From a virus, in IMG/VR virus record IMGVR_UViG_3300008113_000355, positions 1 through 24,587 of that record: a stretch of 24,587 nt of DNA. One strand, 5' to 3'. Each line of letters begins with the position of its first letter. Within the stretch, counting starts at the first letter, position 1. Both the position numbers and the translations under genes were made by a program. Below the pieces are notes generated by a model. The model was not told the DNA's origin, ran no database searches, and saw only the letters and a program-made list of their open reading frames with translations. Positions 3,200-14,558 of this stretch are shown here, piece after piece.

Positions 3200-3778
3200 A
3201 TGAGAGCAATGAGACAATTTGTTGTCCGTGTAGACAACAAGTTCACCAATGAAATTAAATTGAAAAACGGTGTCAGCCTTGTTATTGACACTAAGTTTGA
3301 ACCACACAAGCACAGAGCTTTTTATGGCGAAGTGGTTGAATTACCCGTAAAGGTAAATAGTCCAGTTTCAATTGGAGATAGGCTGTACTTTCATCACTCA
3401 ATTATATTCAATGAGAACTTTCAAATTGCAGATGACCTTTTTCTTGTCGCATATGAAAGCGCTGGTGGGTACAACTCGCTTTGCTACGCATATGAACACG
3501 ATGGAGTCATTCACACTCTTGGTGACTTCATATTTCTGACGCCACCAGCCAAGGAAGAAGTGAAAAGCGAATCTGGTCTTTTCCTTGGATTTGAGAAGAA
3601 GGTTGAGGATAGGGGATACATAAAGTATATGAATGAGCTTGGTGACGAGCTTGGCGTGTCTATTGGTGACCTCGTTGGATTCACCCCCAATTCTGATTGC
3701 GAATTTGTAATCAATAATGAGAAGCTTTGGAGAATGAGGCTTCAAGATTTGACTGTAGTGTATGAGCAGGCGGATTGA
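3200..3778 (+). CDS. Tandem GroES-like co-chaperonin (predicted)
   Basis: This is a 192-residue protein. The second half, about residues 108-190, follows the GroES pattern: an opening strand FIFLTPP, a variable Lys/Glu/Ser-rich loop, a GYIKYM strand, then VSIGDLVGFTP, and a closing VINNEKLWRMRLQDLTVVYE, which mirrors the GD-V-F ... L-M--SDILAI end of GroES. The first half, about 5-100, repeats the layout more loosely: FVVRVDNKF, a possible mobile loop, GEVVELP, then SIGDRLYFHHS. GroES caps GroEL to close its folding chamber; phages such as T4 (gp31) encode their own version so that host GroEL accepts a large capsid protein. A two-domain form is unusual in phages but known in plant Cpn20. Its place just before the terminase genes fits an assembly role. 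The family call is by motif spacing only. Confidence 0.65.
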   Translation: MRAMRQFVVRVDNKFTNEIKLKNGVSLVIDTKFEPHKHRAFYGEVVELPVKVNSPVSIGDRLYFHHSIIFNENFQIADDLFLVAYESAGGYNSLCYAYEHDGVIHTLGDFIFLTPPAKEEVKSESGLFLGFEKKVEDRGYIKYMNELGDELGVSIGDLVGFTPNSDCEFVINNEKLWRMRLQDLTVVYEQAD

Positions 3779-8706: not shown

Positions 8707-9036
8707 ATGAAAACCAGGGAGGCTATTCAGAATATGCTCAAGAAGTATGGATTGAGTGGGGTCAACAAACCAAAGAAGACCCCAAGTCACCCTACTAAAA
8801 AAGGAATCGTTCTAGCTAAAGAAGGAGATAAGGTTAAGCTTATCCGCTTTGGAGACCAGAAGATGGGACACAACTATAGCCCAGAGGCTCGCAAGAGCTT
8901 CAAGGCTCGCCACGCAAAGAACATTGCAAAGGGCAAAATGAGTGCTGCGTATTGGGCTGATAAATTTTTCTGGGCTGGCTCTAAGGGCAGCAAGAAGATG
9001 CCTCCTAAGTCACAGAAGTACACTCGTGGCATATGA
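8707..9036 (+). CDS. Small basic phage protein of the RARH/YWADK type
   Basis: This gives 109 residues from ATG 8707, one base after the portal stop; an in-frame ATG at 8626 lies inside the portal gene and is disfavoured. The protein is very basic. Its core KVKLIRFGDQKMGHNYSPEA followed by RHAKNIAKGKMSAAYWADKF belongs to a small, widespread phage family I recall from marine and freshwater phages, with invariant RFGD, RKSFKARH and YW--K positions. Its biochemical role is not known to me. Placement between portal and head genes and its high Lys/Arg content suggest a virion or DNA-contacting role. The stop TGA overlaps the next ATG (ATGA), so translation is likely coupled. Confidence 0.88.
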   Translation: MKTREAIQNMLKKYGLSGVNKPKKTPSHPTKKGIVLAKEGDKVKLIRFGDQKMGHNYSPEARKSFKARHAKNIAKGKMSAAYWADKFFWAGSKGSKKMPPKSQKYTRGI

Positions 9037-10727
9037 TTGCTCGCAAAAAGAACAAGCCACAAGAGACCCAAAGTCCCGAAGCTCCAGCTGGTAACATCGT
9101 ACTCGATACGGTTGATGTTGTAGCTAATAAGGCTACTGGAGAAAAGTACGCTTATTACGACAATCTTACTAAAGAGGAGAAAAGACTATTCTCTCAGGAT
9201 TCACCTATCGGTAGGTTTATCCGTTCAAAGGCTATGCGTGGAAAGGGATTGGATGCCTCTGAGGTTGCTGATTTTGCGACTGCACTTCCTAAGGCGGCTC
9301 TAAATGCGATAGGACAAACTACGGCAATCCCACAAGCCGCTATGGTTGAAGCACTTGCGTATGCGACTGGTAAGCCAGCTAATTTAGCTAACGCCCTACC
9401 CAATTACGACTCATTCAACACGTCCCAAAGAACTCCTTCTGAGGTGTTTATGTCCCCCGATGCAAGTCCAATCGCCAAGCTTGCCGTTGACATTGTTGCT
9501 GACCCATCAAATATTGCTGGTGGATTTGGTTTGCTCAAGGGAGCCAAGGTGATGAATTCACTTAGCAAGGCGGCATCTAGTGCGGTATCTAAAGCGGCAA
9601 AAAAGTTTGATGAGGTTGCTTTTGGAATTACGGATGATTTAGTTGAGTCTCCCGTAAAAGCCCAAGTGAAAACCATAAATGATATTTCTGCTGCGGAACT
9701 CGTTAAAAACTTTGACCCAGAAAAGCCGTTGTCTAATATTGTTGAAGACTCAACTGGCAAGTTTCATTTCCTTGCCGAGGATGGAACAATATATGAAGAT
9801 GTTGAAAAACGAATTGATATATTTAGTCCTCCTGGATACGAGCAGAATATCCCCCCATTTGTTGAGATTGATGGAAAGAAATTCGAGCTCAATGAATATA
9901 TTAATCTTGAAGATGAGGGCGATGTTGACATAGCTAGATTCCAGGCTGCGTATGCAAATCAATTCAACGAAAGGCTCAACAATTTCAATATGAATGATAT
10001 TGACATAAGTATAGATGAGACATTAAATAATATCCCAGACCATAGTTATACACTAGATGCAGTAAAGAATTTTGATGAGCTAAAGAAAAAGGGAATTTCA
10101 AAGCAAACCACAAATGATGCAGATAGATTTCTTATTACGTTTTATCAGCAATCTGGTGGGGCCGCATCAACAAACACAAAAAGAAGAGACGCATATCCAG
10201 GTCTTGCGGACTATTTAAAGTCCAAGATGAATGAGGTTATATTGAAACAACCCAAAAGCACTGTTGAGTCAAAGGTGTATACGGGTCGGCGAGGAGATAC
10301 GGATTACGTTGAACTATATAATGAAGATGGTTCCAAAGTCGAGGGTATAAATAATTTTAAAGTCATTAATGATTTAGAGCCCGGCGATATATTTAGCACA
10401 GAGACCATATTAAGCACATCAACAAGTAAAAAGGGTGCCTTTGGGTGGAACTCAACGCTTATGGGGATACGCTTGCCTAAGGGAACATCAACATTGAGCA
10501 TAACTGGGGCGAGAAACATAAAGAAAACAGAAGACGCTGGAATGATTTCAGAGTTTGAACAAGCGCTATACTCAGATGCAAGATTTAGAGTCATTAAAAA
10601 TGAAATGAGGTCTTGGAAAGGTGGTACCAAGAGGTACCTTGAAGTAGAACTTATAAATCCCAAAGTGCTTATTCCTGCATTCGTAACTTTGAAGCTTAAT
10701 CAGTCACAAGATGAAAGCGAAGAGTAG
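9033..10727 (+). CDS. Internal-protein-like fusion with C-terminal ADP-ribosyltransferase-like domain
   Basis: This is a 564-residue protein. Residues about 1-190 are Ala-rich with amphipathic stretches (PKAALNAIGQTTAIPQAAM; AKLAVDIVADPSNIAGGFG) similar in style to internal virion proteins at the end of this window. The C-terminal half shows an ADP-ribosyltransferase signature of the R-S-E group: VYTGRR with R419/R420, an STSTSKKGAF segment at 461-470, and SEFEQAL with E507-x-E509, then a closing FRVI strand. Such enzymes move ADP-ribose from NAD+ to a protein side chain. T4 Alt is a precedent for an injected virion ADP-ribosyltransferase that modifies host RNA polymerase. Packaging in the head is inferred from position beside the portal. 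The second half is far AT-richer than the first, which suggests domain acquisition. Target and activity are unknown. Confidence 0.72.
   Translation: MIARKKNKPQETQSPEAPAGNIVLDTVDVVANKATGEKYAYYDNLTKEEKRLFSQDSPIGRFIRSKAMRGKGLDASEVADFATALPKAALNAIGQTTAIPQAAMVEALAYATGKPANLANALPNYDSFNTSQRTPSEVFMSPDASPIAKLAVDIVADPSNIAGGFGLLKGAKVMNSLSKAASSAVSKAAKKFDEVAFGITDDLVESPVKAQVKTINDISAAELVKNFDPEKPLSNIVEDSTGKFHFLAEDGTIYEDVEKRIDIFSPPGYEQNIPPFVEIDGKKFELNEYINLEDEGDVDIARFQAAYANQFNERLNNFNMNDIDISIDETLNNIPDHSYTLDAVKNFDELKKKGISKQTTNDADRFLITFYQQSGGAASTNTKRRDAYPGLADYLKSKMNEVILKQPKSTVESKVYTGRRGDTDYVELYNEDGSKVEGINNFKVINDLEPGDIFSTETILSTSTSKKGAFGWNSTLMGIRLPKGTSTLSITGARNIKKTEDAGMISEFEQALYSDARFRVIKNEMRSWKGGTKRYLEVELINPKVLIPAFVTLKLNQSQDESEE
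10711..10726 (+). repeat. Stop/start junction repeat, copy 1
   Basis: ATGAAAGCGAAGAGTA is identical to bases 11486-11501. In both places it holds the start codon of one small gene (MKAKS) and, in another frame, the last codons of the gene before it (ESEE, then the stop). Confidence 0.8.
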
Positions 10728-10890: not shown

Positions 10891-11126
10891 TGAAGGCCAG
10901 TCAGAAAAGTTTGAAGAGATGGACCGAGCAGGAGTGGACTACTTCTGACGGTAGCCCAAGCGAGGGCAAGAAACGGTATTTGCCTAAAAAGGCGTGGAGA
11001 GCACTTAGTGCTGGAGAAAAAGCTGCAACTAACAGAGCGAAAGCTGAGGGCAATGCCCAAGGAAAGCAATTTGTTAAGCAGCCTGATAAAATCGCTAAGA
11101 AAGTCGCTAAATACAGAAAACAATGA
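10890..11126 (+). CDS. Small basic protein, DUF5872-like
   Basis: This is a 78-residue, very basic protein. The pattern SLKRWTEQEWTTSDGSPSEG, then KRYLPKKAWRALSAGEKAAT and a KQFVKQPDKIAKKVAKYRK tail is that of a small family I remember as DUF5872, shared by phages and algal viruses. The recall is from sequence pattern and is not verified. The lysine-rich C-terminal helix suggests nucleic-acid contact. It overlaps the genes on both sides (TAATG at 10888-10892; ATGA at 11123-11126). Confidence 0.88.
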   Translation: MKASQKSLKRWTEQEWTTSDGSPSEGKKRYLPKKAWRALSAGEKAATNRAKAEGNAQGKQFVKQPDKIAKKVAKYRKQ

Positions 11127-11227
11127 GTGGACAAGAGTTTGAAGATTGGTTGAACGACCTTGAGGAGGCCAAACAGCCTACGTGCAACATTGAGAACCCT
11201 GAGCAGTGTGAAAACTGCGGAAGCTGA
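11123..11227 (+). CDS. 34-residue acidic mini-protein with C-x7-C-x2-C
   Basis: This is a 34-residue frame: an acidic amphipathic helix (EFEDWLNDLEEAKQ), then TCNIENPEQCENCGS with cysteines at 21, 29 and 32, reminiscent of a half zinc knuckle. The start overlaps the previous stop as ATGA, and the stop is 1 base before the next ATG, the same packing as its neighbours, which supports its being a real gene. It is the only acidic member of an otherwise basic cluster. Function unknown; a metal-bound dimer is possible. Confidence 0.6.
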   Translation: MSGQEFEDWLNDLEEAKQPTCNIENPEQCENCGS

Positions 11228-11228
11228 A

Positions 11229-11360
11229 ATGGCAAAGAGTTTGAAAAAGAGACAAGCGTATTCTGTTGGCGTAAAGCGTGTCAGCAGTGATAGGGCTGTT
11301 GTTGGCGTAAAGAATTTAGAAACCATAAATAAGCTTTATTATGAAAGCAAAAACGTATAA
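11229..11360 (+). CDS. 43-residue basic protein, unknown
   Basis: This encodes 43 residues from ATG 11229 (AKSLKKRQAYSVGVKRVSSD ... NKLYYESKNV). Basic N-terminus, two short VGVK segments, and an end YYESKNV that overlaps the next gene. The frame is open further upstream to about 11160, but that part lies over the preceding mini-gene, so ATG 11229 is chosen. No family recognised. Conserved packing and spacing are the main support. Confidence 0.6.
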   Translation: MAKSLKKRQAYSVGVKRVSSDRAVVGVKNLETINKLYYESKNV

Positions 11361-11502
11361 AGAAGAAAGCTCTACCAAAGAGATTGAGGTTATGCACGCC
11401 GACTTAGCTGAGGCTATGAAGGTTGTTGTGGCTGCCGTAAAGGCCGCTGGCGAAGCCCCTATGCACTACAAGGTGAAGGCTTGCTATGAAAGCGAAGAGT
11501 AA
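11341..11502 (+). CDS. 53-residue helical protein, unknown
   Basis: This is a 53-residue frame: MKAKTYKEESSTKEIEVMHA, then a predicted helix DLAEAMKVVVAAVKAAGEAP and a short strand HYKVKACYESEE. It starts 20 bases inside the end of the preceding gene at a variant of the cluster junction (ATGAAAGC) and ends inside the next gene at an exact copy. Small alpha/beta, nearly neutral. No family recognised. Confidence 0.62.
   Translation: MKAKTYKEESSTKEIEVMHADLAEAMKVVVAAVKAAGEAPMHYKVKACYESEE
11486..11501 (+). repeat. Stop/start junction repeat, copy 2
   Basis: Identical to bases 10711-10726. Here it joins the 53-residue gene, ending YESEE, to the gene that starts MKAKSKTQQ. Confidence 0.8.
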
Positions 11503-11716
11503 GACTCAGCAATACTACGATAGCAATCCAAAGGCGAAGGCCAAGAAGAAAGAGTACGATACAGAGTACCATTCTTCTGAGGAGCGCAAGAAATATCGTG
11601 CATTTCTGAATAAGAAACGCCGTGATTCTGGCCGTTATGGCTCTGGGGATGGTATGGATTACGACCACGATGAGCGTAAGTTTATTGCCAAATCCAAGAA
11701 CAGAAGCAAAAAATAA
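11486..11716 (+). CDS. Small basic protein, YYDSNPKAKAKK family
   Basis: This is a 76-residue, strongly basic protein: KTQQYYDSNPKAKAKKKEYD, TEYHSSEERKKYRAFLNKK, then GRYGSGDGMDYDHDERKFIA and a lysine-rich end. The order Y-Y-x-x-N-P-x-A-x-x-K-K, Y-H-x-x-E-E-R, R-x-x-L-N-x-x-x-R, G-x-Y-G-x-G-D-G-x-D-x-x-H is one I know from many aquatic phages and some large eukaryotic viruses; its function is not established as far as I know. The conserved D-G-x-D-x-x-H could bind metal, loosely like a nuclease turn. It is the last gene before the structured RNA region. Confidence 0.88.
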   Translation: MKAKSKTQQYYDSNPKAKAKKKEYDTEYHSSEERKKYRAFLNKKRRDSGRYGSGDGMDYDHDERKFIAKSKNRSKK

Positions 11717-11739
11717 TTTGCTAAAACCAAAATCTGTCA

Positions 11740-11967
11740 TTAGGTTTGCGTATCCATTAACCGACCAGTGGCGGGTGTCGTTGGATGACTAACCTAAGTT
11801 TGGCTCGTTAGAGCGTGTTTGAGGCAGTCCACTGGGGAGACGTTTGGGAAACCAAGCGCCAAGCTCAAAAGGCTTGGACTACTTGACGGCGGGCAACTTC
11901 ACTCGACAGGTAGAATTCTCCCAAAGGGCGGCTCGATTTCAAAAGAGTTGACGCCTTTTAGGGAGAA
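11740..11967 (+). ncRNA. Putative structured RNA, class unknown
   Basis: The 340-base gap 11717-12056 has no gene. Hand folding gives a compact set of helices. P1 is extended: 11740-11746 with 11791-11797, 11752-11756 with 11782-11786, 11762-11765 with 11777-11780. P2: 11803-11806 with 11811-11814, loop GTTA. P3: 11841-11847 with 11852-11858, capped by a GAAA tetraloop. P4: 11859-11864 with 11872-11877, abutting P3. P5: 11879-11885 with 11907-11913. P6: 11916-11922 with 11961-11967, continued by 11923-11930 with 11952-11959, about 15 pairs with one bulge. Two loop contacts are possible: 11766-11771 (P1 loop) with 11829-11834, and 11894-11899 (P5 loop) with 11945-11950 (P6 loop). It is not a tRNA, and I could not match tmRNA, RNase P or group I intron cores. 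There is no U tract at the 3' end, so it is either processed or part of a longer transcript. A TAATTTG (one base short of the -7 consensus) at 11714-11720 could start it. Confidence 0.72.
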
Positions 11968-12027
11968 CTATATCTAACAGTTTCTTACTCTCTAGGTAGA
12001 TTAAACTAATGTTTGTTAAATCTGTTA

Positions 12028-12035
12028 TAACTTTG
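12028..12035 (+). promoter_or_regulatory. Bacteroidota-type -7 promoter element
   Basis: TAACTTTG matches TAnnTTTG and lies 21 bases before ATG 12057, the same spacing as several other promoters here. It sits downstream of the structured RNA and would give the scaffold-capsid transcript its own start. It also falls inside the 12009 extension of the scaffold frame, which argues against that earlier start. Confidence 0.68.
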
Positions 12036-12056
12036 TATCTAACAAAACTTAATAAA

Positions 12057-13181
12057 ATGAATTATCAAGAAAAACAATTAGAGGCTCTTGGTATTAAAAC
12101 ATTTGATAATGTTGAAGATATCGTAGTCACTAATGACAATACACAGGAGACTACTCCTGCACAAGATGGTGATGTTTCTGATGTTGTTGATTCGCAAGAA
12201 GAGACCACTGACGTAACGCCTAATCCTGATGAGTCTAAAGCTCAAAATGCACCCGCAGAGCCAGTAACTGCTACTGAGCCAGCACAAGCGCAACAGGAAG
12301 AGGAAATCACCGAAAAAGACATAGTAGAGTTTATCTCTAGTCAATTTGAGATGGAGTTCTCCACTCTTGATGAGATTAAAGAGAAACTTGCTGGTTCTTT
12401 GAAAGAAGAAGACTCATTTGCTAACGAAGAGATTCGTCAGTTGAATGAGTTTGTAAAACAAACGGGAAGAAGCATCAGCGACTTCTACTTTGTCCAAGGG
12501 CTCAATGTCACCGAAATGGATGACTTGTCTGCGGTCAAAACGAAGTACAAAATGCTTTATCCCGAATTGTCTGATGATGAGGTTGAGTCACTTCTTGACG
12601 ATACCTTCAAGCTTTCTGAGGAAGATTATTCCGAGAAAGATGTGAGGGTTGGAAAGGCTAGACTGAAAACTGAGGCTTCTATTGCTCGAAACGAGTTAAA
12701 CAAAATGAAGTCTGAGTTGGTCAAGCCAATCGAGAAGAAAGCTGAGCCCACAAAGACGGAGGAGCTAACTAACTATGCTTCTGAAGTCAAAACTGCAATC
12801 TCTGACCTAGAGGAAATCGAATTTGATAACCTCGACTGGAGATTTAAGTTTGGCGAAGAAGAAAAGAAAGCTCTTACGTCATCAGTTGGAGACAAAGGAC
12901 TTGAGTCTCTCTTTGATTCGTTTTCAGACGGCGAAGGCAACATTGACTTTGCTCAGTTTGCCGCGGCTAAATATCTACTCGACAACGCGGACTCTTTGTT
13001 CAAGTTGGCGATTGAGCACGGTAAAAGCATCGGTCGTGAGGAAGTGGTAAGCGCAACCAAGAATCCGTCCGTTGATAAGCCGACCAAAAATGACAGTTCC
13101 ACGATGAGCCCTCGTGAAAATATCGCTCAACAAATCCTATCTCAAATGTCCAGTCGGACACTAAACATTAAAAAACTTTAA
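12057..13181 (+). CDS. Scaffold protein (predicted)
   Basis: This gives 374 residues from ATG 12057; an in-frame ATG at 12009 would begin before the promoter and is disfavoured. The first ~90 residues are acidic and low in complexity (many Thr, Asp, Glu, Gln, Pro), followed by helical charged segments (ITEKDIVEFISSQFEMEFST; RLKTEASIARNELNKMKSEL) and a polar C-terminal end with SPRENIAQQILSQMSSRTLN. An acidic, helical protein with no enzyme motif, placed immediately before the major capsid gene (3 bases apart), is the usual profile of a scaffold that guides capsid assembly and then leaves. Residues near the C-terminus would contact the capsid protein. No protease gene was seen nearby. Confidence 0.82.
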   Translation: MNYQEKQLEALGIKTFDNVEDIVVTNDNTQETTPAQDGDVSDVVDSQEETTDVTPNPDESKAQNAPAEPVTATEPAQAQQEEEITEKDIVEFISSQFEMEFSTLDEIKEKLAGSLKEEDSFANEEIRQLNEFVKQTGRSISDFYFVQGLNVTEMDDLSAVKTKYKMLYPELSDDEVESLLDDTFKLSEEDYSEKDVRVGKARLKTEASIARNELNKMKSELVKPIEKKAEPTKTEELTNYASEVKTAISDLEEIEFDNLDWRFKFGEEEKKALTSSVGDKGLESLFDSFSDGEGNIDFAQFAAAKYLLDNADSLFKLAIEHGKSIGREEVVSATKNPSVDKPTKNDSSTMSPRENIAQQILSQMSSRTLNIKKL

Positions 13182-13184
13182 GAT

Positions 13185-14558
13185 ATGCCGACTACTCAGC
13201 CGACGGATTTTTCTCCGTCAAATTTTAAAGGCAATCGCGCGTCGATTGACAACTACATCGCCCTCGGTGACTACATCGAGTTCGTAAACAAGGTTGACAA
13301 CCGTGATAAGCTTGTTCGCACCTACGGCGACCAAAGCGTATCTGGTTTGAATGGCCTGCTTGAGCTTGTTGGCGCTGTTCGCCAAGAGGCTACTCACGAT
13401 TTCGTACAATGGTGGGAAGAGACCCGTCTGCACGCTGCAATCACTGCTACTGCTGACGTAGCTATTGCTGCTACCGACACTGGTGCTAAGACCTTCGACA
13501 TCGTTGCTGCTGACGCTAAGCACAACGTAATCAAGGTTGGTGACGTTCTTCTTCTCGAAGGATACGTTCGTGCCTACGTTACTGCTGTAAATGGCTTGAC
13601 CATCACGGCTCTTCCTTACAAGGCTACTTGGGGTATCACTAAGGCCCTGAACGCTGACGTTAAGATGGCCCTTATCGGTAACGAATTCAAGCAAGGTTCT
13701 GACCAGCCTGGTGACTTCGTAGGTTCTAACGTAGTTAAGCGTGAGAACACGTTTAGCATCATCAAGAGCATCTTCGCTGTTACTGGCTCACAAATGACCA
13801 ACATCGCTTGGGTACAAGACCCCGAGTCTGGTAAGCCTATGTGGTACTTGAAGCAAGAAGCTGACGTTCGCCAGCGCTTTGCTGACTACCAAGAAATGAT
13901 GCTCGTTCTGGGCGAGAAAGCCGCTAACACCACCCTGTCTGGTTCTACCCACGACATCAACGGTGCTGAAGGTCTTTTCTCTGCTGTTGAGAACCGTGGT
14001 ATCGTTCACGGTGGATACGTTGACCAGCTTTCTGAGATTGATGACATCATCAAGGCTCTTGACAAGCAAGGTGGCGCTATGGAGTACGCTGTTTACGGCA
14101 ACCGCACCCAGATGTTGAACCTCGACGACCTTATCGCTGCTGCCAACAACGGCGCTGGTGCTAACGGTTCTAGCTTCGGTGTATTCAACAACGACGCCAA
14201 TATGGCTGTAACGCTTGGCTTCAAGTCGTTCAACCGTGGAGGTTACACGTTCCACAACAAGTCTTGGAAGTTGCTCAACGAGCCTACCCTCCTTGGTGTT
14301 GCTGGTGCTGACCACTACAAGTTCATTATGATTCCTATGGACTCAGTAGTTGATGCTAAGACTGGTATTGCTGCTCCTTCACTGGAGAAGAACTACAAGG
14401 CTGCTGACGGCTACAGCCGTGAGATGGAGCACTGGTTGACTGGTGGCGCTCGTGGTGTTTACAACGACACTGTAGACCGTCTTCAGATGAACTACCGTTC
14501 TGAGTGCAACTTGGTTACGCGTGCTGCTAACCGCTTCGTACTTGGTAAGGGAGCTTAA
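13185..14558 (+). CDS. Major capsid protein (HK97-fold, predicted)
   Basis: This is a 457-residue protein that would build the icosahedral shell. It begins with a Ser/Asn-rich arm (TDFSPSNFKGNRASIDNYIA), has an acidic aromatic segment at residues 73-82 (FVQWWEETRL), and a long mixed alpha/beta core ending in a tail with DGYSREMEHWLTGGARGVYN and RSECNLVTRAANRFVLGKG. Support comes from its position after a scaffold-like gene, its size, a strong terminator directly after it, and by far the most optimised codon use in the window (AAC, GAC, TTC, GGT, CGT dominate), as expected for the most abundant virion protein. The arm and the tryptophan-rich WWEE motif recall capsid proteins of crAss-like phages, from memory. 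The HK97 fold is inferred. Confidence 0.9.
   Translation: MPTTQPTDFSPSNFKGNRASIDNYIALGDYIEFVNKVDNRDKLVRTYGDQSVSGLNGLLELVGAVRQEATHDFVQWWEETRLHAAITATADVAIAATDTGAKTFDIVAADAKHNVIKVGDVLLLEGYVRAYVTAVNGLTITALPYKATWGITKALNADVKMALIGNEFKQGSDQPGDFVGSNVVKRENTFSIIKSIFAVTGSQMTNIAWVQDPESGKPMWYLKQEADVRQRFADYQEMMLVLGEKAANTTLSGSTHDINGAEGLFSAVENRGIVHGGYVDQLSEIDDIIKALDKQGGAMEYAVYGNRTQMLNLDDLIAAANNGAGANGSSFGVFNNDANMAVTLGFKSFNRGGYTFHNKSWKLLNEPTLLGVAGADHYKFIMIPMDSVVDAKTGIAAPSLEKNYKAADGYSREMEHWLTGGARGVYNDTVDRLQMNYRSECNLVTRAANRFVLGKGA

Follow-up and report, generated by a model that had tools for sequence, protein, structure and literature searches.

By its sequence, the window (the whole 24,587-nt stretch of IMG/VR record IMGVR_UViG_3300008113_000355 analyzed here) is a genome fragment from a Bacteroidota podovirus-like phage whose distant relatives include Cellulophaga phi38:1 and the crAss-like phages. 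Its capsid protein is ~30% identical to those of phi38:1 and the Flavobacterium elemo phages. The terminase, portal, and capsid have matches in PHROGs, and a crassvirus capsid match in Pfam was sub-threshold. All late genes of the window are on the + strand. A GroES-like co-chaperonin (window 3200-3778; phrog_13932) is encoded ahead of the terminase, and a 564-aa protein (9033-10727) has a weak, sub-threshold match to an ADP-ribosyltransferase (PF03496, E 0.00045); the DNA of the latter gene is poorly conserved in the two diverged relatives introduced below (L002 and L003). The flavobacterial -7 consensus is TAHHTTTG, with G avoided at the variable positions (PMC6847099). Twelve such boxes occur on the + strand of the window, eight of them 12-36 nt before a gene start (Table 1), and this promoter map points to a Bacteroidota host.

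Between the last of a run of small genes (11486-11716) and the presumed scaffold gene lies the stretch studied here. The presumed scaffold start is the ATG at 12057; an ATG at 12009 reads CTG in L002 and L003.

Table 1 Features of the structured RNA and its surroundings, in window coordinates.
Feature	Position	Strand	Remarks
Presumed scaffold gene	12057..13181	+	Immediately 5' of the capsid gene
Major capsid protein	13185..14558	+	phrog_13704, E 3.9e-103
TAHHTTTG -7 boxes near gene starts	65, 857, 1874, 6183, 10684, 12028, 15542, 21551	+	
-7 element of upstream small-gene operon, TAACTTTG	10684..10691	+	TAHHTTTG, 27 nt before the start at 10711
-7 element of scaffold-capsid operon, TAACTTTG	12028..12035	+	Transcript start expected near 12040, ATG 12057
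Possible own promoter, TTTG-N20-TAGGTTTG	11717..11748	+	L002 and L003 retain TTG/TAnnTTTG and its spacing; spacer diverged
Structured RNA, most likely functional unit	11752..11996 (approximate ends)	+	Identity, z -4.4, compensatory changes
Helix P1	AUCCA 11752-11756 with UGGAU 11782-11786	+	A-U to U-A double change in L003
Candidate pseudoknot	CCAGUGG 11765-11771 with CCACUGG 11829-11835	+	7 Watson-Crick pairs; invariant
Small hairpin GCUC-GUUA-GAGC	11803..11814	+	Stem invariant; all three changes in the tetraloop
Closing stem	CUGGGGAG 11832-11839 with CUCUCUAG 11988-11995	+	Encloses four hairpins
Hairpin with GAAA (GNRA) loop, 7 bp	11841..11858	+	Pair probability 0.94-1.0; invariant
Second hairpin, 7 bp, abutting the GAAA hairpin	11859..11877	+	Pair probability 0.82-1.0; invariant
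Third hairpin CUACUUG/CAGGUAG, 21-nt loop	11879..11913	+	Pair probability ~0.7 (flank included); invariant
Long 3' hairpin	11916..11967	+	Local fold z -5.75 on + and -3.4 on -

The original prediction placed a compact structured RNA at 11740-11967, in a gene-free stretch. A strongly folding stretch is present there, and 11740-11975 is non-coding. On the + strand this segment has a minimum free energy of -90.2 kcal/mol (z -4.43), and none of 200 shuffles folded as well. In a scan along the window, the frame 11791-12010 ranked second of 271 by z-score, a noisy estimate at 15 shuffles per frame; the 5' part alone (11750-11830) folded no better than shuffles (z -0.67). The predicted extent was too small: the conserved block reaches 12056, and the constrained unit continues to ~11996. 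The functional unit has its probable end near the latter position, with 11988-11995 closing a domain of several helices. The closing stem, which is invariant, was predicted only when the 3' flank was included (pair probability ~0.7). Ensemble probabilities were high for the GAAA hairpin, its neighbor, and the long hairpin, whereas the third hairpin and the closing stem had moderate values. All three local helices of the original prediction were recovered: the GAAA hairpin of 7 bp, the hairpin abutting it, and the 15-pair helix, formed by 11916-11930 and 11952-11967 with one bulge. An outer helix joining 11740-11746 to 11791-11797 was rejected, being mismatched in L002 and L003 and overlapping promoter-like sequence.

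The RNA occurs at the same place in three other IMG/VR contigs, L001, L002, and L003 (100%, 95.6%, and 89.6% identical, respectively). Identity in L002 and L003 was 98.2% and 94.6% over 11752-11975, and 97.5% and 96.3% over 11976-12056. At third codon positions it was 60% and 57% in the gene for a 76-aa protein, 80% and 66% in the scaffold gene, and 86% and 75% in the capsid gene. The block 11752-12056 is thus 95-98% identical, compared with 57-86% at third codon positions of neighboring genes. Sixty consecutive bases (11820-11879) are identical in all sequences, loops included, and the conserved block stops at the scaffold ATG. The invariant loops and this boundary together point to sequence-specific recognition.

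The substitutions in L003 respect the fold. There are 12 of them up to 11996, and they break none of the modelled pairs: four make up two double compensatory pairs, and two others are wobble-preserving. One double change is in helix P1 (A11756T with T11782A) and the other is in the long hairpin (G11928A with C11954T, G-C to A-U), which also holds the wobble-type changes A11923G (A-U to G-U) and G11926A (G-U to A-U). The remaining substitutions fall in loops or at unpaired positions. When 12 changes were placed at random, at least two double changes arose with P 0.0009, and at least two double changes together with no broken pair with P 5e-5, or 1e-4 in a randomization that kept base types. A simpler shuffle control on the three sequences, which has little power, gave 59 of 500. 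In L002, one pair is broken, the terminal pair of the long 3' hairpin. This covariation comes from three distinct sequences in which most helices are invariant, so that the P of ~1e-4 for compensatory changes in predicted helices reflects two informative helices. No reading frame is conserved: indels shift every frame among the three sequences, and protein coding was ruled out on either strand. Here, then, is a genuinely folded, non-coding RNA on the + strand that is under selection. Conservation and compensatory changes support the claim that the stretch is a selected structured RNA and not leftover spacer, and the lack of compensatory changes in diverged relatives that would have spoken against it was not observed among these close relatives.

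We found the RNA only in this lineage, in a search of 80 capsid relatives near the capsid gene, 50 whole contigs, and 395 Bacteroidota genomes. A covariance model recovered only the known contigs among 67 loci and the 50 whole contigs, and gave no match in the 395 genomes, a search that had no positive control; the model was built from three near-identical sequences, which limits what absence means. A similarity search of deposited phages with the RNA likewise gave no match. Three sets of candidates were discarded: 56 loci from a 16-mer scan of genome contigs, which had no extended match in local BLAST and look like chance; pattern matches in seven viral contigs beyond the known ones, without a supporting model match; and a weak second model match at 765-869, which looks like a terminator hairpin plus promoter. 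Other sequence fills the position preceding the scaffold gene in more distant relatives, whose capsids are at most 51% identical; in L004, for example, minus-strand open frames are found there. In a comparison of 52 loci, the L001/L002/L003 group was exceptional in having an ORF-free block before the scaffold gene that is GC-rich (0.42-0.48) and folds with z near -5; a long ORF-free run at the same place in L008 does not fold unusually. L075 has a 201-nt AT-rich, ORF-free run before its scaffold gene (~3520-3720; z -3.6 on +), possibly another structured element. As a separate observation, the portal matches of G401, G417, G426, G431, and G432 (the records of L007, L028, L046, L054, and L055) each carry one in-frame stop, TAA or TAG (G401 has two, both TAA), and the terminase match of G431 contains one in-frame TAA. 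Sequencing errors, joins between reading frames, or reassigned stop codons could account for these.

The RNA lies upstream of the scaffold promoter, whose distance from the scaffold gene is about that of a TAnnTTTG box in five relatives. Because this promoter is downstream of the fold, the main scaffold mRNA does not include the RNA in its leader. The RNA must derive from read-through of the small-gene operon (10684) or from the promoter candidate at 11717-11748. The latter is suitably spaced and conserved, with a chance expectation of 0.07 per window, but it has GG or GA at -10/-9, which breaks the TAHHTTTG rule (PMC6847099). We detected no intrinsic terminator after the RNA and no terminator-like site on the + strand in 11000-13300; CTATATCTAACAG, rather than a T run, comes after the long 3' hairpin. 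A motif, TATCTAACA, occurs twice only in the window, just past the long hairpin (11971-11979) and just past the scaffold -7 box (12036-12044). Pairing of the RNA with the start regions of the phage's own genes was nothing beyond that of shuffles.

Our preferred reading, held tentatively, is a lineage-specific accessory structured RNA (+ strand, ~11752-11996) at the tail of the small-gene operon that acts via a protein or RNA partner. Restriction to one lineage is expected for an accessory element. The RNA would be transcribed late as the tail of the operon driven from 10684, with possible additional transcription from its own weak promoter. It may then persist as a stable multi-helix RNA that presents its conserved loops and junctions to the partner, and would serve in infection as an accessory regulator or decoy, not as a core part of the virion or the packaging apparatus. 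That it forms a separate stable transcript and acts in trans on a partner is what we infer.

The main rival, which we regard as possible though somewhat unlikely, is a cis-acting element in a transcript reading through from the small-gene to the scaffold operon. Such an element might process or stabilize transcript ends, insulate the operons, or, as the put and EAR RNAs described below do, modify the polymerase before it enters the long structural operon. The genes of this region all lie on the + strand, served by promoters at 10684 and 12028 with no terminator found, and conservation runs unbroken to the scaffold ATG, as this reading would have it. However, relatives lack any such element at the same junction, a simple barrier needs less than invariant loops, and the fold precedes the start of the main scaffold transcript. 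The HK022 put and Bacillus EAR RNAs are structured processive antitermination RNAs that lie ahead of a long operon, as the present RNA does. It differs from them in being larger and of another shape, in lying upstream of the scaffold promoter, and in having no Rfam match.

We give a small chance to a new class of phage RNA, one with a compact, pseudoknotted tertiary fold that would act as a catalyst or as a specific inhibitor (mimic) of a host defense or gene-expression complex. Pseudoknots are possible. The two loop complements of the original prediction both exist, one of 7 bp (Table 1) and one of 6 bp (11818-11823 with 11864-11869, also invariant), but they are no evidence by themselves, as helices of that length are common in shuffled versions of the block (mean counts 5.6 for Watson-Crick helices of at least 6 bp and 1.5 for those of at least 7 bp). 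The 7-bp complement also competes with the closing stem. The RNA could be assigned to no known class: nothing in Rfam matched the window at the gathering threshold or the element up to E 10. Permissive Rfam searches of the window and a relative returned only chance-level microRNA and CRISPR-repeat scores, a tRNA/tmRNA scan found none, and literature searches found no matching RNA.

It is very unlikely that the inverted repeats act in DNA, as a packaging site, an origin, or a recombination site. The block is non-coding, highly conserved, and located between structural genes, and its conservation reaches past the fold, as would suit a DNA element. Yet the substitutions keep wobbles (G11923-U in L003, G11926-U in the window) that pair only in the + strand RNA, which favors an RNA over a DNA element, and folding is strand-asymmetric (z -3.64 on + vs -1.83 on - for a wider stretch around the RNA).

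A packaging role, one of the functions originally suggested, is poorly supported. The phi29 pRNA is a packaging RNA, and the RNA described here resembles it in being phage-encoded, compact, and multi-helical and in sharing a late region with portal, terminase, and capsid genes. In contrast to phi29 pRNA, it has no match to a curated covariance model of that type or elsewhere in Rfam, and the terminase is an ordinary large subunit of ~700 aa (phrog_6681, E 5.9e-155), not a phi29-type ATPase. Moreover, 30 relatives encode homologous terminase (46-50%) and portal (37-41%), and the RNA model matched in 0 of these 30 records, although a strongly diverged RNA could be missed; nor does a comparable block precede the scaffold gene in these relatives. 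A packaging component should accompany the packaging proteins wherever they occur, so the lack of matches counts against the role, although a lineage-specific packaging role would be compatible with it. The RNA probably does not belong to the DNA-packaging machinery, and we consider an analog of phi29 pRNA highly improbable.

There was no positive evidence for the suggested ribozyme or decoy, and no ribozyme or other class in Rfam matched. A self-cleaving or other ribozyme, to which possible pseudoknots and an invariant core might point, is scarcely credible: curated models of ribozymes and group I/II introns gave no match even at E 10, no gene is interrupted, and the pseudoknots are not significant. 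Recent recombination as the source of the apparent conservation is equally hard to credit: identity does shift sharply near both block ends, but transfer alone does not explain stem differences that are compensated or wobble-preserving.

As an accessory structured RNA, the element resembles the orphan structured non-coding RNAs found by comparative genomics (PMC2864571, PMC8040213), which are also intergenic and covarying with no assigned function; it differs in being confined to four contigs and in lacking a family match in Rfam 15. It also shares with GibS, an intergenic sRNA of Bacteroidota, its non-coding nature and a sigma-A (TAnnTTTG) promoter setting (PMC7366714). For GibS, the transcript start has been validated and an intrinsic terminator is presumed (PMC7366714), in contrast to the RNA described here, which has a candidate promoter and after which no terminator was found.

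As this case shows, proximity to packaging genes is not evidence of a role in packaging. Functions are known for few of the structured RNAs that phages encode. Being more constrained than the adjacent capsid gene but limited to one small lineage, the present RNA is a good candidate for a regulatory RNA or a host-directed one.
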